Both the position numbers and the translations under genes were made by a program. The notes below the pieces were generated by a model, which was given only the letters and a program-made list of their open reading frames with translations, had not been told where the DNA came from and did not search any database. This document shows positions 3,538 to 37,511 of a stretch of DNA of 39,712 bases, in pieces. The number at the start of each line of letters is the position of its first letter. Positions within the stretch are counted from its first letter, which is position 1. The DNA lies in contig JBDREC010000083.1 of assembly GCA_043820105.1 (NCBI GenBank), positions 1-39,712 of the forward strand, in the 5' to 3' direction. Source of the DNA: JBDREC01 sp043820105 [NCBI: Pseudomonadota bacterium]. Lineage in GTDB: Bacteria > Bdellovibrionota_F > JAHFAK01.

Positions 3538-3572
3538 TTTTGAATTTTGAATCTTGAATTTTGAATTATTAA
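3538..3572. repeat. Heptamer array, word TTTTGAA (5 units)
   Basis: Five units of exactly 7 bases (TTTTGAA, TTTTGAA, TCTTGAA, TTTTGAA, TTATTAA). The array starts on the base after the stop codon of the small lipoprotein gene and ends on the base before the stop codon of proS on the other strand, so the 35-base gap between these convergent genes is entirely array. Confidence 0.75.
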
Positions 3573-5006
3573 TCAATACGCTTTGGCGAAAATTACGCGC
3601 CTTTTGGAGTCCTTTTCACATCTAATACACTTTCCTGCTTCTTTTTCATAATCAAAAGTTAGACAGCGAATTGAAGCTTTTGTTTCTGCTGCTATTTTCT
3701 TTTCGCAAGCTCCATCTCCGCACCAGTGTGCATTTATAAAGCCTCCAGGATTTTCGAGCTTTTCTTTAAAATCATCGTAGGTATCAACATTGAAAGTATG
3801 ATCTTCGCGGAGCTTTAAAGCTCTATCAAATAAGGTCTTTTGAATATTATCTAAAGTATCTTTAACAACTTGAACGAAACCTTCTTTAGTTACTGTAAAT
3901 TTTTCTTTTGTGTCTCTTCTTGCAAAGAATAAGGAATTATTTTCCATATCCTTTGGACCAATGTCTATTCTTAAAGGAATACCAACAAGTTCTGCTTCTG
4001 CAAACTTCCAACCAGGTTTATAATTTTCTCTATCATCTAAAATATGATTAATGGAAGCCTTGGTTAATTCTTCAGAAACTGCCTTTGCATAAGCCATAAT
4101 CTCTTCTTTTTGATCATCATTTTTGGAAATAGGTATAATTATAACCTTATTTTCAGCTAGCTTTGGAGGCAGAATTAAACCTTCATCATCTGAATGAGCC
4201 ATTATTAAGGCTCCAATTAATCTTGTTGAAACACCCCAGCTAGTTGCATAAACATATTTCATTTCACCATCAGAATCCTGAAATTTCACATCAAAAGCTT
4301 TTGCAAAATTTTGATCCAAATTGTGACTTGTTCCTGCTTGCAATGCCTTTTTATCTTGCATCATGGCTTCAATACAATAGGTGTGTTTAGCTCCTGCAAA
4401 TTTTTCATTCTCTGTTTTTATGCCCGTTAAAACTGGAACAGCCATATATTCTTCTGCAAACTTTTTATAAACTCCAAGCATCTTTACTGTTTCTTCTTCT
4501 GCTTCTTCAGCAGTTGCATGAGCTGTGTGACCTTCTTGCCATAAAAATTCAGTTGTTCTTAAAAAAAGCCTTGTTCTCATTTCCCATCTAACAACATTTG
4601 CCCATTGATTATATAAAAGAGGTAAGTCTCGATAAGACATTATCCATTTTTTATACATACTCCAAATAATAGTTTCAGATGTTGGTCTAATAAATAATGG
4701 CTCATCAAGCTTTTTACCACCACCATGGGTAACAACAGCACATTCAGGTGAAAAACCTTCAACGTGTTCAGCTTCTTTATGCATAAAGCTTTCAGGAATA
4801 AGCATAGGGAAATAGGCATTTTTATGCCCTGTTTCCTTAAACATCTTATCAAGATTTTTCTGAATATTTTCCCAGATCTCATAGCCATTTGGTCTTATTA
4901 CCATACAACCCTTAACAGGTGAATAGTCAGCAAGTTTTGCATTTATAACAATATCAACATACCATTTTGAATAATCTTCAGACCTAGGCGTAATTCTCTT
5001 TGCCAT
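3573..5006 (-). CDS. proS: Prolyl-tRNA synthetase (archaeal/eukaryal type)
   Basis: A 477-residue class II aminoacyl-tRNA synthetase that charges tRNA-Pro with proline in the cytoplasm. Class II motif 2 is seen as RWE...[16 protein letters not shown] and motif 3 as [10 protein letters not shown]. The anticodon-binding domain follows, and then the C-terminal domain typical of the shorter archaeal/eukaryal-like ProRS form also found in some bacteria, with zinc-ligand-like cysteines (CGDGAC, then C-x13-C-x2-C) and the characteristic terminal tyrosine (AKAY). There is no INS editing domain, in line with its length. The ATG has a GGGAGAA site 6 bases upstream. It lies 71 bases downstream of rho on the same strand and is probably co-transcribed with it, with a heptamer array in the gap. 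Confidence 0.95.
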
Positions 5007-5043
5007 TAAATTCTCCCAAACACTGTTCAGTTGGATAATGTTA

Positions 5044-5078
5044 AGCTGAAGGCTGATAGCCGAAAGCTGACAGCTTCC
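5044..5078. repeat. Heptamer array, word AGCTGAN (5 units)
   Basis: Five 7-base units (AGCTGAA, GGCTGAT, AGCCGAA, AGCTGAC, AGCTTCC) in the rho-proS gap, running up to the last base of the rho stop codon. The same word recurs in an independent array at 16614-16648. Confidence 0.75.
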
Positions 5079-6325
5079 TATTGATTCATTGAAGCTAAGA
5101 ACTCATCATTGGTTTCAGTTTTTGTAAACTTATCAAGTAAAAATTCCATTGTATCAACTGCATTAAGAGGATGCAGCACTTTTCTAAGAATCCAAATCTT
5201 AGCCAAAGTATCTTTATCAAGAAGCAGTTCTTCTTTTCTTGTACCTGACTTATTAATATCCATTGATGGAAAAAGTCTTCTTTCAACAAGTTTTCTGTCA
5301 AGATGAATTTCCAAGTTACCTGTTCCTTTGAATTCTTCAAAGATAACTTCGTCCATTCTTGAACCTGTATCAATCAGAGCTGTTGCTATAATTGTTAAGC
5401 TGCCGCCTTCTTCGATGTTACGAGCAGCACCAAAAAATCTTTTTGGTCTGTGCAGAGCATTAGAATCAACACCACCTGAAAGAATTTTTCCTGAAGGAGG
5501 AACAACTGTGTTATAAGCTCTGGCAAGCCTTGTAATTGAGTCAAGCAAGATAACAACATCTTTTTTATGTTCAACAAGTCTTTTTGCTTTTTCAATAACC
5601 ATTTCAGCAACCTGTACGTGTCTTTGTGCAGGTTCATCAAAAGTTGAGCTTATTACTTCGCCCCTAACAGATCTTTGCATATCTGTAACTTCTTCAGGTC
5701 TTTCATCAATTAGCAAAACAATCAAAGTTGCCTCAGGATTGTTTTTTTCAATTGCATGAGCAATATCTTGAAGTAGCATTGTTTTACCAGTTCTTGGTGG
5801 AGCAACGATTAATGCACGTTGACCTTTTCCAACAGGTGTTAAGAGATCCATAATCCTTGTTGTGTAGTTTCTAGGCGCCCATTCAAGATTAAGTTTCTCA
5901 TCAGGATATAACGGTGTTAAGTTATCAAATAAAACCTTTTGATGCATAACTTCTGGATCTTCAAAATTCACAGTATTAACTTTTAATAGTGCAAAATATC
6001 TTTCATTATCCTTGGGAGGCCTAATCATGCCAGCAACTGTATCGCCTGTTTTAAGACCAAATTTTTTGATTTGTGAAGGTGAAACATAAATGTCATCAGG
6101 ACCAGGAAGATAGTTATAGTTAGGTGCTCTTAAAAATCCGAAACCATCAGGAAGTGTTTCTAAAACACCTTCTCCATAAATTTCACCATCTTTTTCTGCT
6201 TTTGTTTGTAAAAGGGCAAAGATAAGTTCTTGCTTACGCATGGTTGCTGCTGATTCGATTTTAAGATCTTTGGCGAGCTTTAAAAGTTCGCTAGGTTTTT
6301 TTTCTTTTAGTTCGTTTAAATTCAT
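5078..6325 (-). CDS. rho: Transcription termination factor Rho
   Basis: A 415-residue hexameric RNA helicase that ends transcription of untranslated RNA. In order: a Rho_N helical domain (1-45), the cold-shock-like RNA-binding domain (about 50-120, with DGFGFLR and [12 protein letters not shown]), then the RecA-type ATPase with P-loop APPRTGKT (Lys 181), [25 protein letters not shown] and the Q/R-loop segment. The length is typical of Rho without an inserted N-terminal extension. A GGAGT site precedes the ATG. A promoter is visible about 110 bases upstream (6437-6464), giving a long leader. That fits the known attenuation-type self-control of rho, although no leader element can be proven here. 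It is followed by proS. Confidence 0.97.
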
Positions 6326-6436
6326 TATTTGACTCCATTGAAATTATATATATATGAATAATATTATTGTTGGCTAATATGGGTAGTTTTCTTTGCTAAT
6401 TAGTAATAATAAGAATCGTATTATTTATATTGAATG

Positions 6437-6464
6437 ATATTAATCATTTGTTTTAAAATGTCAA
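6437..6464 (-). promoter_or_regulatory. Predicted rho promoter
   Basis: On the minus strand a perfect TTGACA (6459-6464) lies 16 bases before TAATAT (6437-6442). It lies between dprA and rho and would give a leader of about 105 bases in front of rho. Confidence 0.45.
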
Positions 6465-6482
6465 TATGTTTTCATATTTTTG

Positions 6483-7337
6483 TCAAATTTTAATATCTGT
6501 AACAGTTTCAATTGAAATAGCGCCTTCATCAAGAAGCTTAAAATTTCCTTCATTTTCCTTTCTTTTTTTATCCCATTTTACAACAAAAACGTCACGGTTT
6601 TGTTCAAGAGCCATCCTGGCAGTTATTAATGAGCCAGATCTTAAAGAGGCCTCAATAATTATAATAGATTTTGAAAGGCCACTAATAATTCGATTTCTTC
6701 TTGGGAAATGATAAGGAAGAGCTGGCATGCCAATTGGGTATTCTGATAAAAGAAGGTTATCTTTTAGTAATTGAGCATACAGGTATTTATTTGAAGGAGG
6801 ATAAATACTGTCAACTCCTGAACCTAGAACAGCTATTGTTTCGCCATTTGATTTTAAAGCACCAAGATGAGCTGAGGCATCTATTCCAAAAGCCATGCCA
6901 GAGACAATACAAAAACCTTTTTTTGAAAGTTCAAAGGCAAACTCAAAGGCAAAATCTTCAGCTTCACGGGTACATTTTCTAGCTCCAACAATTCCAATAG
7001 TTTTTTTGTTTTTTAAAACAGCTGGATTACCTCTTAAATAAAGCAAGCAAGGAGGATCAAAAAGCTGACCTAAAAGTTTAGGATAATCTTTACTGTAAAT
7101 ATTCAAAAAACTTATGTCATTATTTTTTTCGATAAAAAATGAATTTCTAATGCTTTTTGACTGTTTAAACTTCTCATAGTCATTTAAAAATTCTTTGAAA
7201 AAATCTAATCTTTTATCAATTATATCTTTTGGTTTAAGTTTTTGTGTATATAGATAATTTAATAAAGTGCTATTATTATGAATTCTTTGGCTTAATAAAA
7301 GCCAAATTTTATCTTCATTGTTAAGAAGTGGGCACAT
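6483..7337 (-). CDS. dprA: DNA processing protein DprA
   Basis: A 284-residue single-strand DNA-binding protein that loads RecA during natural transformation. The Rossmann-like DprA core is clear from about residue 100: TIGIVGARKCT, the SGMAFGIDASAH motif, ETIAVLGSGVDSIYPP, LLSEYP, FPRRNRIISGLS and EASLRSGSLITA. An N-terminal helical region of about 95 residues has no clear signature. The C-terminal winged-helix domain found in longer DprA proteins is absent, so this is the short form. The start codon is 6 bases after the nrdJ stop with no strong ribosome site, suggesting translational coupling to nrdJ. No other competence gene is in the window. Confidence 0.93.
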   Translation of the reverse strand: MCPLLNNEDKIWLLLSQRIHNNSTLLNYLYTQKLKPKDIIDKRLDFFKEFLNDYEKFKQSKSIRNSFFIEKNNDISFLNIYSKDYPKLLGQLFDPPCLLYLRGNPAVLKNKKTIGIVGARKCTREAEDFAFEFAFELSKKGFCIVSGMAFGIDASAHLGALKSNGETIAVLGSGVDSIYPPSNKYLYAQLLKDNLLLSEYPIGMPALPYHFPRRNRIISGLSKSIIIIEASLRSGSLITARMALEQNRDVFVVKWDKKRKENEGNFKLLDEGAISIETVTDIKI

Positions 7338-7343
7338 CTTGAT

Positions 7344-9653: not shown

Positions 9654-9700
9654 TTAATCCCTCCAAAAATTATAATTTTGATTTTTAAGTTGTAAATTAC

Positions 9701-9730
9701 TATATAAGGTAATAATGATTTGTTTTTCAA
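9701..9730 (-). promoter_or_regulatory. Predicted nrdJ promoter with small inverted repeat
   Basis: Minus-strand TTGAAA (9725-9730) and TATATA (9701-9706) are 18 bases apart. The -10 is flanked by ATTAC (9696-9700) and GTAAT (9709-9713), an inverted repeat that could be an operator. It is not a good match to the NrdR-box consensus. Confidence 0.4.
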
Positions 9731-9803
9731 TTAAAAAATTGAATTTAATTACGATTTTTTTTTTATTTGCATTAAAGTCAGTACTAATTCGTGGTAACTA
9801 TTT

Positions 9804-10247: not shown

Positions 10248-10249
10248 AG

Positions 10250-13073: not shown

Positions 13074-13078
13074 TTAAA

Positions 13079-13126
13079 GGGAACAAGAGCGCAGGGGAAC
13101 AAGGGAACAGGGGAACAAGGGGAGAA
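13079..13126. repeat. Octamer array, word GGGAACAA (6 units)
   Basis: Six 8-base units: GGGAACAA, GAGCGCAG, GGGAACAA, GGGAACAG, GGGAACAA, GGGGAGAA. It fills most of the 69-base gap between the convergent nuoF-like and lipoprotein genes. The same word occurs in five other loci in the window. Confidence 0.8.
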
Positions 13127-15283: not shown

Positions 15284-16504
15284 TCAATTTTCTATAGTTT
15301 TAATTACAGTGTTTGTTGTTAAATCAAGTACAGAAATGGTACTGTCTTCAAAATTGCTAACATATAGCAAATTCCCTAATATGGTCATTTCAATTGGATA
15401 ATTTCCAACCTGAATAGTGCCAGTTGTTTCATTTCGATCCAGGTCAATAATTTCAACTTTATTATTACTTGAGGAAAGAACATACAAAGTATCTTCTGCT
15501 TGATTTAAAATCACGGAACCTGGATTGTCTAAACCCAAGGGAATTGAATCTGTTATTACTCCATAAATTCTATCATTATCTATTCCATTGTCAGTGATAA
15601 GAGTTCCATCAATAATGTAAACCATATCACCATCACGAGAAGAAACATAAACCTGATCATTTGAGTCCACGCTAATGCCTCTTAAACCACCACTTTCAGT
15701 TGCATAAGCATTGTCAGTATAAATATACCCTTCAACACTTGCATCCTCAACATCAACCACAAAAATTACATTATAACTTTTAGTAATAACCAGGGCAAAC
15801 TTACCATCTTGGATTAGTGCTGACTTGATGGCCCCACGGCCTGTTGGAACGAGATTAGATGTATTTGTGTTTAAATATACCCCTTTGTAATCATCCCAGT
15901 CTTCATAATCTAATTCTATTAAACTCCAGGATGCAAGGTCAATTAAGGAAAGAGTCCCAGAAGTAATATTTGATGAAAGCAAATATTTATCACCATTAAT
16001 AGTGCTAAGACTAATCCCATATGGATTTTCTCCAACTTCAATTGACCCTTTAGAGCTATTTTCTTCAATCAAATTAAAAGCATCAGAAGCATCAAAGCTC
16101 ACAGAATAACAATCTATAGTATCAGCATTTCTGTTTGCAACATAAAGGTTACCAGCATCATAGAGCATTTGCCCGGAAAATGAGTCTATTTCAATATATT
16201 TATCAGTTAAAAAAGTATACTCGTTAGTTAAAGTATCATACTTGATAATAGAAATCGAACCAGTAGCATGAGACAATTCATAATTTGTATTATTAACCAA
16301 AAGAAAATGATTGGTACCCTTCTCAATTGCAACTATGGAAATCGGGTCATTCAGATAGCCATCAGTATCAGGAAAGCTGATGGATTCACCATCGCAGGAA
16401 GAGAACAAGAGCACAAGGGAACAAGAGAACAGGAGAACAAGGAGAGTATTTAGTATTCGGTATTTGGTATTTGGTTTAATAATTTTCTTTTTTAAATAAA
16501 GCAT
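15284..16504 (-). CDS. YVTN-type beta-propeller lipoprotein with array-built signal peptide
   Basis: A 406-residue lipoprotein (lipobox FSSC, Cys 37; a second FSC at 28). The body has repeats of about 40 residues of the YVTN/NHL-like kind, for example NNKVEIIDLDRNETTGTIQV, GNLLYVSNFEDSTISVLDL and DNIPIEM-like loops, forming a propeller of perhaps seven blades. Such proteins usually sit on the cell surface or in the periplasm and bind ligands or proteins. Remarkably, residues about 9-35, nearly the whole signal peptide, are encoded by a heptamer array and an octamer array read antisense. The stop (TGA) overlaps or abuts the start of the next lipoprotein gene. An AAAGAGAT site precedes the ATG. 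Confidence 0.75.
   Translation of the reverse strand: MLYLKKKIIKPNTKYRILNTLLVLLFSCSLVLLFSSCDGESISFPDTDGYLNDPISIVAIEKGTNHFLLVNNTNYELSHATGSISIIKYDTLTNEYTFLTDKYIEIDSFSGQMLYDAGNLYVANRNADTIDCYSVSFDASDAFNLIEENSSKGSIEVGENPYGISLSTINGDKYLLSSNITSGTLSLIDLASWSLIELDYEDWDDYKGVYLNTNTSNLVPTGRGAIKSALIQDGKFALVITKSYNVIFVVDVEDASVEGYIYTDNAYATESGGLRGISVDSNDQVYVSSRDGDMVYIIDGTLITDNGIDNDRIYGVITDSIPLGLDNPGSVILNQAEDTLYVLSSSNNKVEIIDLDRNETTGTIQVGNYPIEMTILGNLLYVSNFEDSTISVLDLTTNTVIKTIEN
16401..16446. repeat. Octamer array inside a signal-peptide coding region
   Basis: Units GAGAACAA, GAGCACAA, GGGAACAA, GAGAACAG, GAGAACAA and a partial GGAGAG. Read on the minus strand the array encodes the Leu/Val/Phe/Ser/Cys core of the signal peptide (residues 20-35) of the propeller lipoprotein. 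Confidence 0.8.
16445..16479. repeat. Heptamer array, word GGTATTT (5 units)
   Basis: Units AGTATTT, AGTATTC, GGTATTT, GGTATTT, GGTTTAA, directly next to the octamer array and also inside the 5' end of the propeller lipoprotein gene (residues about 9-20). Confidence 0.75.
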
Positions 16505-23600: not shown

Positions 23601-23907
23601 CGAACAATCAATAATTGGGGGCACACCTTCATACATGTCTCCAGAACAAGTTGATGGTGATCCCATAGACCACAGAACAGATATTTACACACTGGGTGTA
23701 ACTTTGTTTGAAATGACTACAAACCAAGTGCCTTTTACAGAAGGCAACATCGGCTATCATCATTTAAATACACCTCCTCCAACCCCGATAAGCATAGAAC
23801 CATCTATTCCTAAATATCTAAATGATATAATACTAAGGTGCCTAGAAAAAAAACCTGACAACAGATATCAAAATGTATCTGAGATTCTTTTGGATATTCA
23901 AGATTAA
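20671..23907 (+). CDS. Multidomain signalling protein: GspE-N, HD-GYP-like, REC-like, TPR, Ser/Thr kinase
   Basis: A 1078-residue cytoplasmic protein. Residues 1-150 are a GspE/MshE N-terminal domain (LGQILIADGIITENKLNEAL, LGLILLELGYI), which in some proteins binds cyclic-di-GMP. Residues about 300-415 are HD-GYP-like: H303, H335-D336, H387, then NGEGRYGLK where HD-GYP enzymes have DGxGYP, so activity may be altered. Residues about 475-585 resemble a receiver domain with acidic D482-E483 and D527. Residues about 593-790 are TPR-like repeats. Residues 826-1078 are a Hanks-type kinase: GKGGMG (832-837), Lys 854, HRD at 945-947, DFG at 965-967 and SPEQ. The catalytic loop reads HRDLTTNN instead of HRDLKPEN. 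There are no membrane segments. The ribosome site is weak (GAGA). It is a stand-alone gene. Confidence 0.85.
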   Translation: MEKKWLKLGQILIADGIITENKLNEALLKQENDDRKLGLILLELGYINKENLYKALSKQYNVTYLTFDQIQKDGACSYALNIIPEIIAQMKSVLPLAFDSSKGIFKIVVADPTNQEVVGEMKVLAKANAVHLYVSDPETIERCILKFYSESKSAKEKKDISAIADRTLYELKALDKRLKGEKEIGYVGKKYKFIKDFKAEIEQSGIQFFWYDQISALLDDIGNRKFKIIYIEKSIIPEKERPESIKREILNKDSWAQVSFVESFGQLFYSDPISYDSLASFSFNLIDYIVTFFEPRLGEYRGHAHNVARYSEKIAQALNLPKPISDEIKIAAFIHDIAKILHQESEDSGILLFDDYQIMYNKNVDEFIKLISPSTRINSIIKCLNEHYNGEGRYGLKANEIPIGARIISVIDMFEEISKHETNHEEEGTSNKELAFRGIRKEASKSLDPEIVEAFINVVKGELTIENISKSMDTPKKVLFADEMSYDLNLMRLRLINEGIKVFIEQDPEQAYKIYKKYKPQIIICSDSSIETFQNKVNKETCLLAFTENKLLEQSEEIMAKIEKPVDIEKFDAIITSLFNKIFMKEERITSSIGFFKRSGNYYQAADLYRELGDLSKAAKMYIKAEDFNQAAKMYLSLEKYNEAGLLYEKTQDLNLALECFQKSENLIKQNEILIKEERFYEASLNLYSKNRYEQAIKLLQKVKKDSRDYKEASILLGNIFFIQKRYTLAIRFLEKIVLSEELNDENIINFYKLALAYETNKDFNEALEIYEKILGKRYDFEDVLSRVDKIRKMKHAGKEKEELEKEAGRFLVPEDSKSGSSKRYDHVKEIGKGGMGVVYLAKDLILDRMIALKVLYANLQTNKRIIETFIREAKSAASLNHINIVTVYDAGIDQGNYYIAMEFIDGSTIREIIKRKKLSIQNVIAILKQICRGLDYAHANHIVHRDLTTNNIMLSKNGVVKIMDFGLARVIRSLMSEQSIIGGTPSYMSPEQVDGDPIDHRTDIYTLGVTLFEMTTNQVPFTEGNIGYHHLNTPPPTPISIEPSIPKYLNDIILRCLEKKPDNRYQNVSEILLDIQD

Positions 23908-23914
23908 AGCTTAA

Positions 23915-23949
23915 GCGTACAGAGTACATCGTACGGCGTACGGCGAATA
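23915..23949. repeat. Heptamer array, word GCGTACG (5 units)
   Basis: Units GCGTACA, GAGTACA, TCGTACG, GCGTACG, GCGAATA just after the stop of the kinase gene. The unit is itself nearly palindromic (CGTACG), so it can fold on itself and might serve as a terminator element between these convergent genes. Confidence 0.7.
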
Positions 23950-24844: not shown

Positions 24845-26893
24845 TTATTTTTCTACAATGACAGGAATCGTCAATATGTCGCCTGGCATTACTTTTGCTA
24901 AATCTTTCCCAATATTTTGCTCTTTAAGTAACCATAGGGGAATGGTAAACTTTTTAAAGCATAAATACCAAAGACTATCACCTTTTTCTAACTTATATTC
25001 AAAGGTTGAGGTAATACTAAAATTATTCCAAAAGTCTTCTTCGATTCCATCGTGGAATTCATTTCTTAGTATATCAAATTTTTCTTTTGTAACTTTTTGA
25101 TAATCAATTTTTATTTTTTGCCCAAGGTGAATATTTTTTCCATAACGAAAACCATTAATTTTTCTCAGATAAGAAGCACTAAGCCCAAGCCAATCCGCAA
25201 AGTGCCCAAGTGTTTCTTCTGTATCAACTCTAATATAGTCAAATGTAGAGGGCGCTTTTGACCTTATTTGTTTGGTTTTTGGTTCTGTTTTCTGAGTTCT
25301 TGGTTCTTTTTTTGCTGTTTCTATTTTCTTAATTTCTTTAGCTTGAACCTTGGTCTCTGCCTTAATAACCGTTTCCTTGTTATCTTGTTCTCCTGTAATC
25401 TTGCGTTCTTGTTCCCCTGCGCTCTTGCGCTCCTGTTCCCCTGCGCTCTTGCCTCCCTGCTCTCTTGTTCCTTTGTCCTCCACCTGAGCTAAATAAACTG
25501 GCTTCTCTGTAACAGGCAATTTAAGCCTTTGTCCTTCGTAAATTCTATTTCCAATTATATGGTTTCCAGCTTTAATAGCTGCAACACTTGTTCTATTTTT
25601 TCTAGCTATCTCACTTAGGGTATCCCCTCTTCTAACCTTATAATACATTGACCTTTTTTGAGCAGAATATTTATGAGCCTTTGGTAATTTTATTTCATAA
25701 TTAGACGCTAGCTCCAAGACCTCTTCTTTGGGAAGCTTTAGCTTAAATCCCCTGGGAATTCTTTGGTAGTTTGAAAAAATTGGTGGGCGCAAAGAATAGT
25801 TATACTTTTTTACTTCATCAATATTAAGCTTAAAAAACTTTTGTAGAGAACCTAAATATATATAATCTGGTAAAATAAAAACTGAATATTCTAAAGGTTT
25901 ATATTTTTCAATATAGCCAAAATATTTATGACTATTTTTAAAAACATCACAAGCTGCCAAAAATTCAGCGTAAAAGTTCTTAGAAGCAAATCCAAAGGTT
26001 CTACCATTATATTGATCTATAATTATGCTAATATCTTTTGTTGAAAGTTTGCGGACTGCAGCCTTCATCCCTCCCAAACCATGATTATAGGCGGTGATTG
26101 CAAGTGGCCAGCTTTGAAGCTCTTCATAGTTTTGTCTTAATAATTTAGCAGCAGCAATCGTTGATAAAATAGGATCAAGCCTTTCATCAACAGCTGAATC
26201 TATATTTAAAAATAACTTTCCAGTGGAGCGAGTAAATTGCCAGATTCCAGCTGCGCCAAACTTTGAATATGCTTGATAATTAAAAGAAGATTCTACATTA
26301 GGAAGATAAACAAGGTCTTTTGGCATATTAAAACGGTCAAAAATATCTTTTATTTCGTCTAGATAACGACCAGATCTCTTAATCCCCTCAATAAACCTGT
26401 CTTTTTGACCTAGTTGAAATCTCACAGATTCTCTGGCTCTATTCAAGCGAGTTATTGAATTATCATCCTTAAATAAAGCTAGAATTCTTTCTTCATCTGC
26501 ATTTAAATTAAGCTTTTTCTTTTTAACTATAGAATAAAGTGTATTAGTTATTCTGGTTTTTGCATTTTTTAATAACTTTTTTCTCTTACTCCCGGAAATA
26601 TTCTGAGGAAGGTCTACTGAGCCATATATAATTGATAAGTCTTCATCATCATGAATTAGCCCTTCAGCTGTTGTATATTTGCTGTAAATCAATTTCCAAA
26701 AATCTACCCTTGCTTGAAGTTTTTCAGGAATTTCAAAAAGATTTTCCTCCAAAGCTTTCTTTGACTGGACTTGATCTTTTGATTGGCCTTGTGCTTGAAC
26801 AAAAAAAACCATTCCTAGAAAAAGAATAAGAAAAATATTTTTTGAAAATTCGATTTTTTTGATTTTATTCAAGTCCGCTTCTTTTTTCTTCAT
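24845..26893 (-). CDS. mltD: MltD-like lytic transglycosylase with LysM domains
   Basis: A 682-residue exported murein hydrolase. I take the ATG at 26893; the longer frame begins with TTG at 26917, and a TTG near 26872 at the dksA stop is another option. All precede the signal peptide (NIFLILFLGMVFFVQA). The SLT domain holds the catalytic Glu 201 in VESSFNYQAYSKFGAAGIWQF and the AYNHG motif, which cleave glycan strands to anhydromuropeptides. Peptidoglycan binding is by LysM 1 (about 417-460, YYKVRRGDTLSEIA), a weaker LysM-like unit (about 546-593) and a C-terminal one (about 630-680). Residues 472-541 are a disordered charged linker almost wholly made of octamer and heptamer arrays. The 5' end overlaps dksA. 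Confidence 0.88.
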   Translation of the reverse strand: MKKKEADLNKIKKIEFSKNIFLILFLGMVFFVQAQGQSKDQVQSKKALEENLFEIPEKLQARVDFWKLIYSKYTTAEGLIHDDEDLSIIYGSVDLPQNISGSKRKKLLKNAKTRITNTLYSIVKKKKLNLNADEERILALFKDDNSITRLNRARESVRFQLGQKDRFIEGIKRSGRYLDEIKDIFDRFNMPKDLVYLPNVESSFNYQAYSKFGAAGIWQFTRSTGKLFLNIDSAVDERLDPILSTIAAAKLLRQNYEELQSWPLAITAYNHGLGGMKAAVRKLSTKDISIIIDQYNGRTFGFASKNFYAEFLAACDVFKNSHKYFGYIEKYKPLEYSVFILPDYIYLGSLQKFFKLNIDEVKKYNYSLRPPIFSNYQRIPRGFKLKLPKEEVLELASNYEIKLPKAHKYSAQKRSMYYKVRRGDTLSEIARKNRTSVAAIKAGNHIIGNRIYEGQRLKLPVTEKPVYLAQVEDKGTREQGGKSAGEQERKSAGEQERKITGEQDNKETVIKAETKVQAKEIKKIETAKKEPRTQKTEPKTKQIRSKAPSTFDYIRVDTEETLGHFADWLGLSASYLRKINGFRYGKNIHLGQKIKIDYQKVTKEKFDILRNEFHDGIEEDFWNNFSITSTFEYKLEKGDSLWYLCFKKFTIPLWLLKEQNIGKDLAKVMPGDILTIPVIVEK
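25272..25306. repeat. Heptamer array, word TTGGTTC, inside the transglycosylase gene
   Basis: Units TTGGTTT, TTGGTTC, TGTTTTC, TGAGTTC, TTGGTTC. In the gene it encodes a 7-residue periodic peptide (EPRTQKT, EPKTKQI) in the linker before the second LysM-like unit. Confidence 0.75.
25385..25480. repeat. Twelve-unit octamer array inside the transglycosylase gene
   Basis: Twelve consecutive 8-base units of the type TTGTTCCC (complement of GGGAACAA), mixed with CTGCGCTC and TTGCGCTC variants. It is the longest octamer array in the window. It encodes a linker repeating every 8 residues (SAGEQERK, SAGEQERK, ITGEQDNK). Confidence 0.85.
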
Positions 26894-28255: not shown

Positions 28256-28287
28256 TTGCCCGTTTTTATTGATATTGATCTAAACAC

Positions 28288-28354
28288 GTTGCTGGTTATT
28301 CGTTGCTGCTTGCTGGTTTTATTACTAGCAACTAGCAACAAGCAACTAGCAACC
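28288..28354. repeat. Facing heptamer arrays forming a hairpin before rpmH
   Basis: Left arm 28288-28315 has units GTTGCTG, GTTATTC, GTTGCTG, CTTGCTG. Right arm 28325-28352 has units CTAGCAA, CTAGCAA, CAAGCAA, CTAGCAA. The arms are imperfect reverse complements around a short T-rich loop (28317-28324). The spacing within each arm is exactly 7. Confidence 0.75.
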
Positions 28355-29134: not shown

Positions 29135-29222
29135 ATTAATTATTAATTGTTAATTATTGGTTATTTTAGAAGCCGTTCTTTTGAATAATTAATAATTAAC
29201 AATTAATAAATAATAATTAATG
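29135..29222. repeat. Facing heptamer arrays forming a long hairpin before yidC
   Basis: Left arm 29135-29169 has units ATTAATT, ATTAATT, GTTAATT, ATTGGTT, ATTTTAG. Right arm 29184-29222 has units AATAATT, AATAATT, AACAATT, AATAAAT, AATAATT. A stretch of about 19 bases is exactly complementary, and G-T pairs extend it. It fills most of the yidD-yidC gap, ending about 20 bases before the yidC start. Confidence 0.8.
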
Positions 29223-29241
29223 ACTTTTTAAGGATACCATA

Positions 29242-30924
29242 ATGGACATTGAAAAAAGAATGTTTTTGGCTATTGCTGTTTGTATTTTAATTTGGATAGC
29301 TTTTTCACCTAAAGCAGTGAAAAAAGCTGATAAGCCTGGTGCTAAAGTTGTAGCAGAGCAGAGCCAGGTTGACAATAGCGCAGAGGGACAGGAGCGCAAG
29401 AGCTCAGGGGAACAGGGGAACAAGGAACCAAGTGAACGAGGTAACAAGGCAGAAGAGACTGGAACTCAGAATCTAGAAACTAGGATTATTGAAGAGGTTT
29501 CAGTAAAAGAAAGCTTGCAAACTCTGGAAAATGATCTTTTTAAGATTAGTGTTTTAAATAAAGAGGGGCTTATAAAATCAATTAAACTTAAAAACTATAA
29601 AAGCCAAATTAATAAAAGTTCCTCAAGTGTAGAAATGGTTGGCTTTGATTCTTCACAGTATTATATGCCTTTTTGGAACATTCAGTTAGCCGGGGATGAT
29701 GAAGTTTTAAAATTAACTTATGATTTTGAAAAATCTGAAAAAAATGAAATTATTTTAAAATCTCTTCCAAATCCTTACTTCATAGTAAGCAAAAAATATA
29801 AGGTGGATGAAAATTCTTATGTAATTGAAACATCAATGGATATTGAAAATATTTCTGAAAGTAATATTAATTTTTCAACCATAATAAAAATTCCTCAAAA
29901 CATTCCTGAAGATGAAAAAACTTCTGGGTTTTTATCTTTTGCAACACGTCCTAACATGCAAGTCGGAATGGTAGATATTTTAGGGAAAGTTCAGCGAGAA
30001 ACTCTTTCTTCAATGAAAGAAAATGAAAGCAAAAACTTTGATGGAAGCTTTATCTGGGCAGGTCTTGGTGATAAATATTTTGCAAATCTTGTTCTTCCTT
30101 TAAAGACTGAATTAAAAAGCACCGTTTTTTCGAAAGAATCGAAAGATCTTGCACTGTTCAAAGCTACTCACGCTAATAAAAAACTAGAACCCGGAGAAAA
30201 AACACAAATTGCTTTTAGATTATTCTCAGGCCCCCTTGAAATTGATGTTCTTCAAAATACAGAAAAAGAGCTAGGCAAGGCTATTGATCTTGGAAACTGG
30301 CTTGGACCAATTGCCAGACCAATGTTGAAGTTGATGAAATTTATTCATAATTATATTCCAAATTATGGTATAGCTATCATTATCCTAACAATCCTGGTCA
30401 AATTACTTTTATTTCCTTTAAATCAAAAACAGTATAAATCAATGAAAGCTATGCAATTGCTTCAACCCAAAATAGCTGAACTAAAAGAAAAATTTAAAGA
30501 TAATAAAGAAAAATTAAATATGGAAACCATGAACCTTTTCAAGCAGCACAAGGTTAACCCAATGGGAGGATGCCTTCCAATGCTCTTTCAGTTTCCAATA
30601 TTTATAGCCCTTTACAGAGTCTTATATAACTCAATTGAACTGAGACATGCCCCTTTCATGGGCTGGATAAAAGATTTGTCAGCTCCTGATCCTCTTTATA
30701 TTTCACCAGTAATTATGGGTATTACAATGTTTTTACAACAACAAATGACTCCAACAACAACAATGGATCCAGCCCAGGCAAAAATGATGAAAATAATTCC
30801 ACTTGTTTTTGCTTTATTTATGATCATGTTGCCTTCTGGGCTAGTTATTTATATTTTTATAAACTCTCTACTATCCATCCTGCAACAATGGTTAATTACC
30901 AGAAAAAAGGATGTCAAAATTTAA
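29242..30924 (+). CDS. yidC: Membrane protein insertase YidC (Oxa1 family)
   Basis: A 560-residue inner-membrane insertase of the Gram-negative type. An N-terminal transmembrane anchor (about 7-22) is followed by a linker. A large periplasmic beta-sandwich domain (about 80-345) comes next, then the conserved C-terminal hydrophobic core: GIAIIILTILVKLLLFPL, QPKIAELKEKFKDNKEKL, NPMGGCLPMLFQFPIFIALY and LVFALFMIMLPSGLVIYIF. The linker at residues 46-69 is an octamer array read in frame, continued by a heptamer array (29461-29488), so this essential gene has tolerated repeat insertion. An AAGGA site precedes the ATG by 7 bases. Confidence 0.95.
   Translation: MDIEKRMFLAIAVCILIWIAFSPKAVKKADKPGAKVVAEQSQVDNSAEGQERKSSGEQGNKEPSERGNKAEETGTQNLETRIIEEVSVKESLQTLENDLFKISVLNKEGLIKSIKLKNYKSQINKSSSSVEMVGFDSSQYYMPFWNIQLAGDDEVLKLTYDFEKSEKNEIILKSLPNPYFIVSKKYKVDENSYVIETSMDIENISESNINFSTIIKIPQNIPEDEKTSGFLSFATRPNMQVGMVDILGKVQRETLSSMKENESKNFDGSFIWAGLGDKYFANLVLPLKTELKSTVFSKESKDLALFKATHANKKLEPGEKTQIAFRLFSGPLEIDVLQNTEKELGKAIDLGNWLGPIARPMLKLMKFIHNYIPNYGIAIIILTILVKLLLFPLNQKQYKSMKAMQLLQPKIAELKEKFKDNKEKLNMETMNLFKQHKVNPMGGCLPMLFQFPIFIALYRVLYNSIELRHAPFMGWIKDLSAPDPLYISPVIMGITMFLQQQMTPTTTMDPAQAKMMKIIPLVFALFMIMLPSGLVIYIFINSLLSILQQWLITRKKDVKI
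29377..29488. repeat. Octamer and heptamer arrays inside yidC
   Basis: Nine 8-base units (29377-29448; for example GGAACAGG, GGAACAAG, GTAACAAG) encode an 8-residue periodic peptide (GQERKSSG, GNKEPSER). After 12 bases come four 7-base units (29461-29488; GGAACTC, AGAATCT, AGAAACT, AGGATTA). Confidence 0.75.
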
Positions 30925-30958
30925 ACATAACATTTTTAAATAGATGAAAGGACAAATA

Positions 30959-31765
30959 ATGTCAGAAAAAATTTATGAAGGTGAAACCTTAAAAGAAGCC
31001 ACACAAAAAGCTTGTGAAGATTTAAGGGTATCAGAAGAAATGTTAGAAGTAAAAGTATTAGAAAAACCAGCTGGCTTATTGATGAATTTATTACGATCTG
31101 GAACTTATAAGATTTCTGCTGAAGTTAAAGAAGGGGGCAAGAACGCAAGGGAACAAGAGAACAAGGGGGAAGAAGATGAAGAAAGTATTGGGAATTTGAA
31201 AGAAGAATATAGGAACCCTAGAGGAAATGATGACAAAGGGGAAAAACAAGGAAGAATTTACAAAGTGGTTTCTTATACAGCGGATGAAATTAAAACAACC
31301 ATAATGAGCATAATTAAACACATTGATTCTGATGCTCAGATTGAAACTCAAACAAGAGATGATGAAATGCATTTTAATATAGTGAGTGAAAAAAGCTCTA
31401 TCCTTATTGGAAAAAATGGCGAAACATTATCCGCGCTTCAATACCTTGTTATAAAGATGCTAACAAATAATTCAAGCCTGGAAAAGAAAATTGAAATTGA
31501 TGTTGAGGGTTATAAAAAAAGAAAAAGAAGAAAAATGATAGATATGGCAAAAAGGGTTTGTGATGATGTAAGACAAATGAAAAAACCTATAAGCCTTGAC
31601 CCAATGCCATCTCATGAAAGATGGATAATTCACAATGAACTTACATCTGAAAGAGGTGTTGTAACTAAAAGTTTTGGTGAAGGTAGAGACAGAAGGGTAG
31701 TAATTATCCCTGATAAATTTAAGAACATGGAAGAAAAGCTTTTGGTTAAGTATTTTAAACCCTAA
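30959..31765 (+). CDS. jag: Jag / KhpB-family RNA-binding protein
   Basis: A 268-residue protein. I chose ATG 30959 because AAAGGA lies 7 bases upstream; the ATG at 30944 has no such site. The Jag N-terminal domain (1-50, YEGETLKEATQKACEDL) is followed by a linker, which contains an octamer array (residues 59-72). A KH domain with the GKNG loop (ILIGKNGETLSALQYLV) and a C-terminal R3H domain (MPSHERWIIHNEL) complete it. The family binds RNA and affects cell elongation and division. It sits between yidC and mnmE, the normal position. Confidence 0.93.
   Translation: MSEKIYEGETLKEATQKACEDLRVSEEMLEVKVLEKPAGLLMNLLRSGTYKISAEVKEGGKNAREQENKGEEDEESIGNLKEEYRNPRGNDDKGEKQGRIYKVVSYTADEIKTTIMSIIKHIDSDAQIETQTRDDEMHFNIVSEKSSILIGKNGETLSALQYLVIKMLTNNSSLEKKIEIDVEGYKKRKRRKMIDMAKRVCDDVRQMKKPISLDPMPSHERWIIHNELTSERGVVTKSFGEGRDRRVVIIPDKFKNMEEKLLVKYFKP
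31133..31172. repeat. Octamer array inside jag
   Basis: Five units, GGGGGCAA, GAACGCAA, GGGAACAA, GAGAACAA, GGGGGAAG, encoding a linker peptide with NAREQENKG between the Jag-N and KH domains. Confidence 0.8.
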
Positions 31766-31854
31766 CATTGGAAATTGAGAATTGATTATTGAAAATTATA
31801 AACAGTTTAAAATAATCAATAGTCAACAATCAATTTTCAATAATTAATTGTCAG
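31766..31854. repeat. Facing heptamer arrays forming a hairpin before mnmE
   Basis: Left arm 31766-31800 has units such as AATTGAG, AATTGAT, TATTGAA. Right arm 31813-31854 has units TAATCAA, TAGTCAA, CAATCAA, TTTTCAA, TAATTAA. The arms are reverse complements with few mismatches. The array starts right after the jag stop and ends 7 bases before the mnmE ATG, so it may hide the mnmE ribosome site. Confidence 0.8.
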
Positions 31855-31861
31855 AAAAAAC

Positions 31862-33214: not shown

Positions 33215-35097
33215 AAAATAACTTTGATATAATAATTGTTGGAGGCGGCCACGCTGGAATTGAAGCTGCCTTTGCTGCAGCAAAAATGGGTTTTGATACA
33301 GCACTTGTATCATTATCTCTTGATAAACTAGGAGAAATGCCTTGTAATCCTGCGGTTGGTGGTTTAGCTAAAAGCCATTTAGTAAAAGAAATCGATGCTC
33401 TCGGTGGTTTAATTGGAAAAGTAACAGATCGATGTGGAATACAGTTTAGAACTTTGAATACCAAGAAAGGACCTGCTGTTTGGGCAACACGTGCTCAAGT
33501 TGATAGATTTTTATACCCAAAAATAATGAAAGATTATCTTGAAAAACAAGACCGTCTTTTCTTATTTGAAGATGAAGTTGCTGAAATTTTTATATCAAAC
33601 AACAAAATAAGTTCTATAAGTTTAATAAACAATAACTGCCAATTATTGTGTAAAAAACTTATTTTAACAACAGGCACTTTTTTAAGAGGCCTTACGCACA
33701 TCGGCCTGGATTCAAAAGAAGAGGGACGTTTTGGAGAAAAGCCTGCAAATTATTTATCAGAATCACTAGATAGACTTGGAATAAAGCTAGGCAGGCTGAA
33801 AACAGGCACTGTCCCAAGGCTTGATAAAGATACTATTGATTATTCAAAATTTGTTGAACAAAAAAGCGATGATCCTGCTCCAATGTTTACAAACCTTTTT
33901 AATGGACCTTGCCTTGATCAAGTTTCATGTTTTCAAGGTTATACTAATAAAAAAACCCATGAACATATTCTAACAGGCTTTGAAAAATCTCCTCTTTTCC
34001 AAGGAATAATCAAGGGAATTGGACCACGATATTGCCCATCCATAGAAGACAAAATCCATAGGTTTCCTGAAAGAGAAAGACATCAAATTTTTGTTGAACC
34101 AGAGGGGCTTGACTCTCAGTTTATTTATTTAAATGGTGTTTCTACAAGCCTTGCAAAAGAAACCCAAGAACTAATGATAAAGTCAATTACAGGTCTTGAA
34201 GATGCTAAAATTTTAAGATATGGCTATGCTGTTGAATATGACTATATAAATCCAATAAATTTAAAACCAAGTCTTGAATATAAAAAAATAGAGGGCCTTT
34301 ATTTTGCAGGACAAATAAATGGAACTTCCGGTTATGAAGAAGCCGCGGCCCAAGGTCTTATGGCCGGCATAAACGCTGCATGCAGTTTGCTAGGCGAGGA
34401 AGCCTTTATATTAAAACGATCTGAATCATATATTGGAGTTTTAATAGATGATCTTGTTACAAAAGGAACGAGTGAACCTTATCGAATGTTTACCTCTCGT
34501 GCTGAATACAGGCTTTTATTAAGAGAAGACAATGCTTTTGACCGTCTCGCCAAATATGGAGATAAGCATAAACTCCTTGAAGCCTCCAGATATAAAGACT
34601 ATTTGAATAATAAAAACAAAATTGAATCTGTTATTGAGATTCTAAAAAAGGAAAAAATAAATCCAAATAAAGAGCTTCAAGAAAAGCTTTTAAAGCTTGG
34701 AATTCAAGACTTCAATAGACAAGTTTCATTATATGATTTTTTAAAAAGACCTGAAGTTACATATGAACTACTTTTAAATATTTCAGACCAAATTCCCAAG
34801 ATAACTGGCATTGTTAAAAAGAAGGTGGAAATAATTTCTAAATATGAAGGCTATATAAAAAGGCAATTTGAACAAGTAAAATCATTTGAAAAGCTTGAAC
34901 AAATAAAAATTCCTGATAATTTTGTTTATGATCAATTACCTGGTCTATCATCGGAAATTCAAATTAAATTAAATGAGGTCAGACCTGATAATTTGGGTCA
35001 AGCTTCCAGAATACCAGGAGTGACACCTGGAGCGATTTCGGTCTTGATGGTTTATATTAAGAGAACAAGAGAACAGGAGAACAAGAGAACATGGTAA
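33211..35097 (+). CDS. mnmG: tRNA modification enzyme MnmG (GidA)
   Basis: A 628-residue FAD enzyme and partner of MnmE. I chose the ATG at 33211 overlapping the mnmE stop; a TTG 12 bases upstream is unlikely. The FAD-binding [10 protein letters not shown] is at the N terminus, followed by [33 protein letters not shown], and GRLKTGT. The C-terminal helical tail ends with [19 protein letters not shown]. The last dozen residues ([10 protein letters not shown]) are not part of the family: they are encoded by the first arm of an octamer array that has overrun the end of the gene. Confidence 0.96.
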
Positions 35098-35154
35098 TAA
35101 TTAATTTGCCGCGTATTTTTGTTCCCTTGTTCTCCTGCTCCCTTGTTCCCCTGG
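35061..35154. repeat. Facing octamer arrays at the mnmG-tlyA junction
   Basis: Left arm 35061-35092 (GAGAACAA, GAGAACAG, GAGAACAA, GAGAACAT) lies in the mnmG coding end. Right arm 35119-35150 (TTGTTCCC, TTGTTCTC, CTGCTCCC, TTGTTCCC) lies in the gap. They can pair along their length using G-T pairs, with a 26-base loop. The GGAG before tlyA is at the end of the right arm. Confidence 0.8.
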
Positions 35155-35162
35155 AGTAGTTT

Positions 35163-35897
35163 ATCAAGAAAGAAATCACAAACATCCTCATTCAAAGAGG
35201 CCTTGCAATAGATGAAATTCATGCTCGTAAACTAATCATGGCTGGCCTTGTTTACCTAAAAGACAGAAGAATCGAAAAGGCATCTGAAAAAATCGATTGC
35301 TTATCTGAAATATTTATAAAAGAAAAAAACAAATATGTATCTCGAGGAGGCCTAAAGCTAGAGGGTATAATGCAGGATGCTTCTATAAACCCCAAAGGCT
35401 CAATTTGCCTGGACATTGGGGCATCAACCGGAGGCTTTACTGATTATTTAATCAAAAACAATGCCCAAAAAGTTATTGCCCTTGATGTTGGACATGGGCT
35501 TATAGACCAAGGCTTGAGAAATAATTCTAAAGTTGTATTAATTGAAAAAACTAATTTTAAAAACATTAATTTTAACCAAATAGGTCAGAAGTTCGACCTA
35601 ATAACAATAGATGTTTCTTTTATTTCATTAAAAAATATTCTTCCAAAAACAAAGCTTTTTGTAAAACCAGGAGGAAAAATTATCGCTTTATTAAAACCTC
35701 AATTTGAACTGCCATCTAAAGATGTGCCAAAAGGAATTGTAAAAGATATTAAACTTATTGAAATTTTGAAATTGAATTTTTCTGAATTTATTACTTCTCT
35801 AAACTTAAACTTGCTTGGATTTTATGATTCAAAATTAAAAGGAACAAAAGGAAATCAGGAATATTTTTTAGTAATCGAGGCACCATGGTGCACATGA
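35163..35897 (+). CDS. tlyA: TlyA-family rRNA methyltransferase, apparent ATC start
   Basis: A protein of about 244 residues of the TlyA family: an N-terminal S4 RNA-binding domain and an FtsJ-like methyltransferase (LDIGASTGGFTDYL SAM site, ALDVGHG, LITIDVSFISL, LLKPQFE) that 2'-O-methylates rRNA. The S4 part reads KKEITNILIQRGLAIDEIHARKL, as expected right after the initiator. However, the codon at the initiator position (35163) is ATC, with GGAG 6 bases upstream and an in-frame TAG at 35157. The first ATG is only at 35238, inside the S4 domain, and would delete its first 25 residues. ATC initiation, a start-codon mutation or a base error are the options. Confidence 0.85.
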   Translation: MKKEITNILIQRGLAIDEIHARKLIMAGLVYLKDRRIEKASEKIDCLSEIFIKEKNKYVSRGGLKLEGIMQDASINPKGSICLDIGASTGGFTDYLIKNNAQKVIALDVGHGLIDQGLRNNSKVVLIEKTNFKNINFNQIGQKFDLITIDVSFISLKNILPKTKLFVKPGGKIIALLKPQFELPSKDVPKGIVKDIKLIEILKLNFSEFITSLNLNLLGFYDSKLKGTKGNQEYFLVIEAPWCT

Positions 35898-35918
35898 TGC
35901 CCCAATAGCTTTTTTAAT

Positions 35919-35937
35919 AAATCCTCCTTAAGGATTT
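35919..35937. terminator. Hairpin between convergent tlyA and minus-strand gene
   Basis: AAATCCT (35919-35925) and AGGATTT (35931-35937) form a 7-bp stem with a 5-base loop in the 41-base gap between stop codons. The bases after it on the plus strand are T-rich (TTTCTTATT), so it may end tlyA transcription. Confidence 0.4.
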
Positions 35938-35938
35938 C

Positions 35939-37390
35939 TTATTCAACCCTCTTCACTAGCCAAAAACCCTGAGGATTAGTTATATTGCCTTTTTGCTTAT
36001 AATCTAAAATCCCTATTTCACCTGGTTTTGTCAATGAAAAGACAAAGTCAGAAAGTCCATCAATTACTTCAGCAGAATAAGCCACATTTCCATCTAAGTA
36101 ACTCATTCTTATAATATCATTCCTGGATTCAGGAGTAATGTCAAAATTACTAAGAGCAATATAATCTCTATTTTGATAATCCGAGAAATTATTTGTTAAA
36201 AACCCAAAGTCTTCTCCTGAATAAGCCCTATCTAACACTTCCAAGATAAAAGTATGAGCGTCTTCATAAGTCCTGGTATTTGTTTCACCAATCAAGGCAT
36301 CCTTAAAGCCAATTAATATAGCCTGAAAAACAACTCTTGTAGGCACATTATATTTTGCATATAAACGTCTAATGCCATCTTCATCAATCAAACAGGCCGA
36401 CACGTGATCACCAAATACTGGCAATAAAACCTCTTCAACAAACTGCCTCTTTAAATCAGTTCTAATATAATCCCGATATTGACTGATAGTTCCCAAATAA
36501 ATCTGAAAATCTGGATCTGTCCATCCCCTTTTTTCAAAGGACTCTTGATTTATCCAACCTCTTCTTGCAAATTCTTCAGCCCAAAAAACACCATCTCTAC
36601 CAATGTTTAAAACATAGGCTTGAAATTCATTAATCAAAAGTTCATAATCTGTATCAACAGGATAAAAGGCAGCTAAAAATCTTTTCTCAAACCATTCTGC
36701 AACTACCGGATTTGAAATTTTATAAGCTTTCCAAAAACTATCTACTGCTTTATAATATTCTTCATTAGAAAAGAAAAATCCATGCTTTGATTCGTGAGAA
36801 ACTTGGGTTACTCTCCTCCACACTCTCCATGAAAGGGATTCTTCAGGACGATCATTTTCAAGTTTTTTTCTTAGAACTTGATCAGTTGAAATAATAGCAA
36901 TATTATCTTTATTAAGATTTATCCCATATCCGATAATTTTATCATCAAAATAAGTTTCATGAACAAGCTTCAGGCTCATTAGTTCATCAATAAGCATTTT
37001 TTCTTCTACAAAAAAATCAAATTCGCCAGCATGCAAAACAGCATTAAAAAAATTTACCAGCTTGGCTACAGAATAATCATGTCCGTCAATATAACCACAG
37101 GCGTTTTTATTGGTTTTAGACATCAAGAAATCTTCAGTTACCAAACCATTATTAGTTTCTAAATAATGATACGCTCTTTCAAACATTTTAACTTTTGTTA
37201 GGCAGTTATTAAAATCAAAAAAGATAATATCAAAGCCCTTAATTGAAGTTAAATTATAGTTATCGCTATCCTCAATAAAATCATGATTAAGCAAGTCTGA
37301 TAAGGCCTTGTATTTTGTTATGTTTTTTGCAAATAAAGAAGAAAAGAGAAACATTAAGATAATAATTAAAATGACTAAAAGTCTCTTCAT
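35939..37390 (-). CDS. Secreted protein with HExxH motif, possible zinc metallopeptidase
   Basis: A 483-residue exported protein (signal peptide MKRLLVILIIILMFLFSSLFA). Residues 199-203 are HESKH in the context VTQVSHESKHGFFF, which fits the HExxH zinc motif. Glu 255 in ELLINEFQAYVLN is well placed for the third ligand of a gluzincin. No family can be named; the assignment rests on these motifs only, and the lack of small residues usual around HExxH calls for caution. The rest is mixed, with many aromatic and acidic residues. A GGAGTG site lies 8 bases before the ATG. The gene is alone, converging on tlyA and diverging from hybA. Confidence 0.55.
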   Translation of the reverse strand: MKRLLVILIIILMFLFSSLFAKNITKYKALSDLLNHDFIEDSDNYNLTSIKGFDIIFFDFNNCLTKVKMFERAYHYLETNNGLVTEDFLMSKTNKNACGYIDGHDYSVAKLVNFFNAVLHAGEFDFFVEEKMLIDELMSLKLVHETYFDDKIIGYGINLNKDNIAIISTDQVLRKKLENDRPEESLSWRVWRRVTQVSHESKHGFFFSNEEYYKAVDSFWKAYKISNPVVAEWFEKRFLAAFYPVDTDYELLINEFQAYVLNIGRDGVFWAEEFARRGWINQESFEKRGWTDPDFQIYLGTISQYRDYIRTDLKRQFVEEVLLPVFGDHVSACLIDEDGIRRLYAKYNVPTRVVFQAILIGFKDALIGETNTRTYEDAHTFILEVLDRAYSGEDFGFLTNNFSDYQNRDYIALSNFDITPESRNDIIRMSYLDGNVAYSAEVIDGLSDFVFSLTKPGEIGILDYKQKGNITNPQGFWLVKRVE

Positions 37391-37469
37391 TACTACACTC
37401 CAGAGCTATATTTTACAAGAATGAACTTATACACCCTTGCACGCGCCGTGTCAAATGTTTTTTTCCCCT

Positions 37470-37511
37470 CTTCTGTCTTCGTGCTTCAACATTTTGTCTT
37501 CAGGCTTCACG
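37470..37511. repeat. Heptamer array, word CTTCNNN (6 units)
   Basis: Units CTTCTGT, CTTCGTG, CTTCAAC, ATTTTGT, CTTCAGG, CTTCACG in the divergent gap upstream of hybA. CTTC recurs at exact 7-base spacing except for one degenerate unit. Confidence 0.65.

Follow-up and report, generated by a model that had tools for sequence, protein, structure and literature searches.

Why does one stretch of bacterial DNA carry so many short tandem arrays that are built from different words and keep a step of 7 or 8 nucleotides (nt)? The stretch, called the window here, comprises the 39,712 nt at the start of contig JBDREC010000083.1 from JBDREC01 sp043820105 (Bdellovibrionota_F), in which an earlier note made from the sequence alone had counted at least fifteen such arrays. 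The arrays in the window are real, and they are members of the known heptamer-dominated class of prokaryotic short repeats. Additions to this class are degenerate units, facing pairs, a polarity that is independent of the word, a change of word at orthologous spacers and one carrier element; pairing and degeneracy are seen in the window too, the other three only in other genomes. The account that we prefer, with a probability of about 0.45, is that the spacer-filling arrays are formed in place and held as pairs.

Arrays in the Window

A lenient scan (+1/-1, score of at least 14, with 60 copies as control) gave nine segments of period 7 in 39.7 kb, where 0.17 were expected and no copy had more than one, and five of period 8 (0.15 expected, at most two per copy). 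At other periods there was one segment at 5, none at 10 and 11, and two at 13. The total of about 14 segments of period 7 or 8 is close to the number in the earlier note. A strict scan (+1/-2, score of at least 13) found four arrays of period 7 and three of period 8, and 20 order-3 Markov copies had none at either period. The same scan gave one segment at period 6, none at 4, 5, 9, 10 and 11, and a few at 12-24, many of which are multiples of 7 or 8 or belong to a coding repeat at 305-541.

The arrays that are individually strong (0-0.017 expected) start at 3536, 16445, 28324, 29135 and 29184 for period 7 and at 13077, 16399, 25371, 29389 and 35059 for period 8. Borderline cases (0.1-0.4 expected per window) are GCGTACG at 23914, TTGGTTC at 25271, TTGATTA at 31767 and 31811, AGCTGAN at 5045 and the octamer at 35119. 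Three arrays are not significant alone: CTTCNNN at 37469 (10.6 expected per window), the GTTGCTG arm at 28288 (10.6 expected), which is counted only as the partner of 28324, and the octamer at 31137 (0.87 expected). The list of words given earlier therefore holds up for TTTTGAA, GGTATTT, CTAGCAA and ATTAATT, is borderline for GCGTACG, TTGGTTC, TTGATTA and AGCTGAN, and fails for CTTCNNN. The octamer word said to be common to all octamer arrays, GGGAACAA, does occur exactly nine times in the window against 1.0 expected, but the true unit is the degenerate ARGRGMRC.

Tandem units beyond chance with 7 nt dominant, the mark of the heptanucleotide or 5-11 nt long simple sequence repeats, are found in the window. 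Near-identical units, by which simple sequence repeats are also recognized, are lacking in the window octamers, where neighbors differ at positions 2, 4, 6 and 7. The arrays are not clustered regularly interspaced short palindromic repeats (CRISPR), in which unique spacers of similar length separate the repeats, as the units run head-to-tail without spacers. The short tandemly repeated repetitive (STRR) sequences of cyanobacteria are tandem heptamers, and the parallel drawn with them was right in kind.

Is the preference for 7 and 8 peculiar to the window? No close relative of the window was found. The genomes used for comparison are mostly Desulfobacterota, and the groups are named from their central genomes, G006 (Desulfobacterales), G019 (Omnitrophota) and G018 (Spirochaetales). 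An unselected control consisted of 58 distant loci (985 kb) found via YidC, with a best identity of 60%; there, periods 5-11 are represented about equally among the intergenic arrays. Array-rich genomes are dominated by periods 7 and 8 and multiples of these: period 7 is dominant in some genomes of the Desulfobacterota group and in one of the Omnitrophota group (G420), and in some of them also period 8. The period spectrum of the window is of this type and not that of the unselected loci. A 418-kb sample of five array-rich genomes, chosen for GTTRCTN hits and with contigs taken by number, held 9, 2, 5, 1 and 2 arrays of periods 7, 8, 14, 10 and 12, and 7, 2, 3, 1 and 2 when GTTRCTN was left aside. 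At a lenient threshold, intergenic arrays of periods 7 and 8 numbered 64 and 30 in 201 kb of G036 and 41 and 14 in 73 kb of G006, so that a mixed 7/8 system, called unusual in the earlier note, is not unusual in array-rich genomes. The arrays avoid coding sequence, with 56 of 77 lying outside open reading frames (ORFs) where 10.6 were expected; gene calls for this test, for the arm and gene-edge tests below and for the non-array and period comparisons were the longest ORFs of at least 90 amino acids, uncurated.

Genome G542, from the phylum of a Spirochaetales genome, is rich in tandem repeats, with many different periods between 4 and 16, in L202-L207, in contrast to the genomes with periods 7 and 8 only. 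These loci are shown apart in the period comparison (polarity 2:1), as are the 58 unselected loci, and L194 of the same genome is counted there among the others. The pair, arm and gene-edge tests and the non-array control cover the loci outside G542 (L194, L202-L207) and outside the unselected set, and viral loci L059-L171 enter none of the pairing, polarity or period tests.

Fixed and Free Positions

The units hold both fixed and freely varying positions. Among 32 pairs of neighboring window octamers, positions 1, 3 and 8 differ in 3%, 6% and 0%, whereas positions 2, 4, 6 and 7 differ in 66%, 53%, 44% and 44%. A similar division is seen in GTTRCTN arrays of other genomes (434 neighbors), where position 4 differs in 48% and position 7 in 58%, and positions 1-3 in 2-6%. 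The unit finder itself requires positions 1-3, 5 and 6 of this word, and the evidence is therefore confined to the variation at positions 4 and 7. Simple slippage copying should make neighbors alike, and it is disfavored because adjacent units differ almost at random at set positions.

Facing Pairs and Their Polarity

Four loci in the window are inverted pairs, and their predicted hairpin folds beat those of shuffled sequences (z given for the better strand). Upstream of rpmH, a GTTRCTN left arm (28288-28318, + strand) faces a GTTGCTW right arm (28324-28353, - strand; ACTAGCA on +) that lies 29 nt before the rpmH start, and 28287-28353 folds with z -6.6. Between yidD and yidC, an ATTAATT left arm (29135-29165, +) and its right arm before yidC (29184-29221, -) are 90% complementary (z -9.9). 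An ATTGANN left arm after the jag-like stop (31767-31797, +; 0.38 expected) and a right arm just before mnmE (31811-31853, -; AATNNTC on +; 0.22 expected) give z -5.2. An octamer left arm that overlaps the 3' end of mnmG (35059-35091, +) is paired with an octamer right arm just before an S4/TlyA-like ORF (35119-35153, -; 0.23 expected); here z is -9.3 and -11.9, the latter for the better strand.

The same layout is common in the other genomes. Among 163 neighboring array pairs less than 200 nt apart, 69 were of the same word and inverted and 23 of the same word and direct; about 19 of each were expected, since random pairs share a word at 11.5% and 11.3%. Pairs of GTTRCTN arrays were facing (+-) in 21 cases, outward (-+) in one and tandem in four. 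The idea that the arms are fold-back copies of each other was rejected, since their free positions match no better than chance.

The arrays also have a polarity. In array-rich genomes, 168 of 221 arrays have the 5' side of their G-rich strand turned toward the nearer gene edge, counting those with |G-C| of at least 4 and a called gene on both sides. This was found for GTTRCTN (38/47, or 38:9), for other heptamers (89/117, 89:28) and for octamers (41/57, 41:16). Non-array spacer stretches gave 983:1006 and arrays of periods 5, 6 and 9-13 gave 54:54. When each array was used once, 52 of 65 pairs had more G in the 5' arm (codirectional spacers 35:10, convergent 4:1, divergent 6:1, elsewhere 7:1), while ordinary intergenic inverted repeats from the same loci gave 66:90. 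The polarity is thus independent of the word in the other array-rich genomes.

Could plain replication slippage account for all this? Slippage with a preferred 7-nt step, set by the contact length of the polymerase and followed by decay, would leave neutral arrays. The heptamer excess is general (PMC4679880, PMC6344855), and slippage has been proposed by others (PMC4679880). A 7-nt polymerase contact was proposed by Mrazek et al. 2007, as quoted in PMC4679880. Copies of a repeated element in genome G169, described below, differ by whole units, as slippage would have it. Facing pairs, inward G-strand polarity and a division into fixed and free positions common to the loci are not predicted, however, and slippage by itself seems a somewhat unlikely source.

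Orthologous Spacers

In alignments, orthologous spacers keep arrays while the words change. Over about 30 kb of synteny between G110 and G036, 16 alignment breaks were taken as spacers and 12 of them were viewed, two only for their first 350 nt. By eye, arrays were present in five spacers of each genome and four of these were shared, for which a chance of about 0.05 was estimated by hand. Where a spacer is shared, the word has changed and is mostly the same in both arms; at one such place three genomes have the units GACGGGT, GACGAGT and GACGAGG. The spacer in front of a leuA-like gene (named by eye) holds a pair of GTTRCTN arrays in G110, a pair of GATNCTN arrays in G036 and several words in G074, and G169 has no array there. 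Because the words at such spacers differ or have drifted from genome to genome, the arrays are more than frozen copies of a single element.

These changes also bear on the possibility that the arrays are binding sites for chromosome-organizing or regulatory proteins that read a degenerate 7- or 8-nt word, placed as opposed pairs. The fixed and variable positions do resemble a motif, and in Geobacter metallireducens opposed pairs of tandem GTTGCTYN octamers and MTYCTGA heptamers are annotated as predicted global regulator sites (PMC2700814). With many unrelated words per genome, and with words that differ at orthologous spacers, one factor cannot read them all, and we regard binding sites as an unlikely general explanation.

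A Copied Element

In one genome, G169, two arrays lie inside one element and are spread with it by copying. In the element, which is about 105 nt long, the conserved core AAAAAAACGTCCGGTCCG is flanked by a GTTRCTN array of 4-5 units and by a heptamer array with a different word. It is present in at least 10 places (10 of 197 candidates were scored), including L314:600-720. Comparison of eight copies revealed differences of whole 7-nt units in two cases. The element is absent from the orthologous xerC-hslV spacer of G140, G110, G074 and G036, and G140 has 28 nt there instead of 132. The claim of the earlier note that the same period with different words cannot come from copying was therefore too strong, since here two arrays of different words travel in one multi-copy element. 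The window octamers, which share one degenerate word, may likewise have arisen by copying.

Does this make the arrays the terminal inverted repeats or cargo of small mobile elements, similar to miniature inverted-repeat transposable elements (MITE) or repetitive extragenic palindromic (REP) sequences? The dispersal of the G169 element and its absence at xerC-hslV would fit, and some arrays in G006, G074 and G110 lie beside other dispersed repeats. The masked array flanks of G032, G069, G105 and G420 have no shared sequence, however (matches more than 97% identical and longer than 80 nt were skipped), and the words differ from locus to locus. One universal element is unsupported outside G169, and mobile elements are an improbable origin for the arrays as a whole.

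How the Arrays May Arise

In the in-place account that we prefer, a fixed-step process would lengthen and shorten spacer arrays by whole units of 7, less often 8, nt, as is suggested by the unit-step differences. Only part of each unit would be held constant and the remainder would vary freely. The product would often be kept, or repeatedly remade, as two facing one-word arrays, one against each flanking gene and with the G-rich strand inward, and a spacer with such arrays would fold as a hairpin. Each locus would see its word drift, and copying of an element that happens to contain arrays would spread them too. The step may reflect a DNA-synthesis event, and the pairing may be retained because folding of the spacer helps, or at least does no harm, where genes meet and mRNAs end. 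That arrays are made in place with a fixed step had been suggested in the earlier note; the arrays with changed words at orthologous spacers and the whole-unit differences agree with this, while the mechanism is one that we infer.

Several observations weigh against this account. The data give no reason for a step of 7. If pairing were selected base by base, the free positions of the two arms should match, and there is no matching beyond chance: variable positions of the two arms match at 30/75 and 29/75 against 31.6 and 27.5 expected, and the free positions match at 27.8 against 27.9 over all offsets. Two unpaired window arrays, at 3536 and 13079, show no fold (|z| at most 0.8), and a third, at 5040, folds only weakly (-2.7). 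Some arrays are located within ORFs. The polarity is absent from the 58 unselected loci (5:7), and GTTRCTN pairs scored by G-C skew give only 10:4. In the window only three arrays can be scored for polarity, and crude gene calls divide them 1:2; the starts of rpmH and the TlyA-like ORF, which the two exceptions adjoin, were missed by the caller and read by eye. Finally, the array-rich genomes are mostly of one phylum.

In another reading, which we hold to be quite improbable, the facing arrays are scars of DNA ends. A bacterial activity would extend both 3' ends at a break or gap in the spacer with G-rich 7- or 8-nt repeats, as in telomere addition, and the ends would then be joined. The step would thereby be fixed, the anchor word would be the same left and right, the variable bases of the arms would be independent, and the G-strands would point inward.

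Words Shared Among Genomes

GTTRCTN occurs in 18 of 198 genomes in the phylum of G006, with up to 382 hits, and in 11 of 145 in the phylum of G019. A word lexicon shared across phyla was rejected, because the reversed word matches 25/198 and 9/145 genomes; with an incidence this similar, only the abundance of GTTRCTN is special. For the other words there was no excess sharing between the window and the G006 or G019 groups over shuffled or reversed words. The octamer was likewise rejected as a widespread word (0/198, 0/46, 0/95, 1/145 and 1/149 genomes, the pattern being two bases shorter in the sets of 145 and 149). An exact three-unit octamer match, mostly GGGGAACA, was seen in 110 viral stretches (L059-L168), for the most part on G+C-rich contigs. 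By eye, viral octamers of the GGGGAACA or GGGAACAA type are often preceded by CTGGAACAG.

Gene Context and Other Features of the Window

The window has 32% G+C and no tRNA, and reads as bacterial. Its genes include nuo-like genes, rho, proS, an nrdJ-like gene and the run rpmH-rnpA-yidD-yidC-jag-mnmE-mnmG (several names by eye). An MnmG tree of 20 rows places the window on a long branch, weakly with Omnitrophota (85/89); the best identity is 50%.

Among the unpaired intergenic arrays, a TTGAATN heptamer array (3536-3573, +; score 23, 0 expected) spans the distance between the stops of a small lipoprotein-like ORF and of proS and has no fold. A weak AGCTGAN array (5045-5075, strand not assigned; TCRGCTN on the other strand; score 12, 0.38 expected) lies between the rho stop and the proS start. 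An ARGRGMRC octamer array (13077-13121, +), also without a fold, fills the spacer between the stops of a NuoF-like and a lipoprotein-like ORF. A GTACNNN array (23914-23945, +; 0.1 expected) is just 3' of the stop of a kinase/TPR ORF, and the non-significant CTTCNNN run (37469-37487, +) is between divergent genes.

Other window arrays appear to supply coding sequence, namely one signal peptide and protein linkers. An octamer array (16399-16441, +) and an adjoining heptamer array, RGTATTY (16445-16475, +; 0.017 expected), lie in the same N-terminal stretch of a beta-propeller lipoprotein-like ORF (15284-16504), of whose signal peptide the octamer array, read on the - strand, codes the most. At 16372-16504 on the - strand the signal-peptide-like N-terminus is coded almost wholly by the two arrays, which looks as if repeats had been turned into an apparent export signal. 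A linker of a LysM/transglycosylase ORF contains a TTGGTTC array (25271-25308, +; 0.1 expected) and a long degenerate ARGRGMRC array (25371-25476, -; score 22, 0 expected). Octamer arrays are also found inside the N-terminal linker of YidC (29389-29449, +) and, weak and short, in the linker of the Jag-like ORF (31137-31165, +).

At 35119-35240 the S4/TlyA-like frame opens directly after the octamer arm; by eye there is no ATG, GTG or TTG before 35238, and a GGAG in front of an ATC codon hints that translation begins at a rare start codon or further on. Elsewhere, 305-544 (+) encodes a lysine-rich repeat protein (KKPVAKKPAAKKAVKKV...) that resembles histone H1 in appearance and has 15/84-nt repeats in its coding sequence. 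An ORF of 1078 amino acids at 20671-23907 has matches to an MshE-related cyclic diguanylate (c-di-GMP) domain and to a NosR-family c-di-GMP phosphodiesterase regulator, TPR-type matches and a Ser/Thr kinase.

Comparison with Known Systems

Heptamers are described as the most abundant intergenic tandem repeats in many prokaryotes, with a periodicity that gives no clear clue to function (PMC6344855). The arrays described here are likewise 7-nt dominant and intergenic, and they differ from prokaryotic heptanucleotide repeats as described in pairing, polarity and degenerate units (PMC4679880, PMC6344855). The TAACTGA repeats of Beggiatoaceae, Cyanobacteria and Bacteroidetes are intergenic heptamers next to start codons, and in two Cyanothece strains the spacers that contain them differ mostly in 7-nt steps (PMC4679880). 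They are, however, of a single word, and one indirect repeat is reported in the BOGUAY genome (PMC4679880).

The class 1-3 sites of G. metallireducens also have opposed pairs, tandem degenerate units and variable spacing, and GTTGCTYN resembles GTTRCTN (PMC2700814). They belong to few fixed families in one genome, and the layout of the legend may point to the opposite, outward polarity (PMC2700814). The window does not have the opposed tandem GTTGCTYN octamers of class 1: its GTTRCTN-like word is heptameric and present at one locus, and its octamer word is different.

There is also a likeness to the GGGAATC heptamers of Xanthomonas studied by Rehm et al. 2015, which are intergenic and form convergent opposite-strand pairs, 70 and 75 cases in two genomes (PMC4692102); such pairs are found in the window. 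The Xanthomonas repeats are on average 28 nt from the next 5' ORF and 160 nt from the downstream ORF (PMC4692102), which we read as the same inward G-strand polarity. The difference is that Xanthomonas has one word that forms G-quadruplexes (G4), whereas here there are many words, steps of 7 and 8, free positions and few G-tracts. GGG tracts of the quadruplex type are absent from the window heptamer arrays and occur in only some units of the octamers. No other polarity rule independent of the word was found in the titles and abstract beginnings of the open-licence papers listed. Facing pairs, an inward G-rich strand and the use of the same spacers with changing words, over many words and both steps, are a constraint on any mechanism, and a rule of this breadth makes a statistical oddity testable in cultured bacteria.

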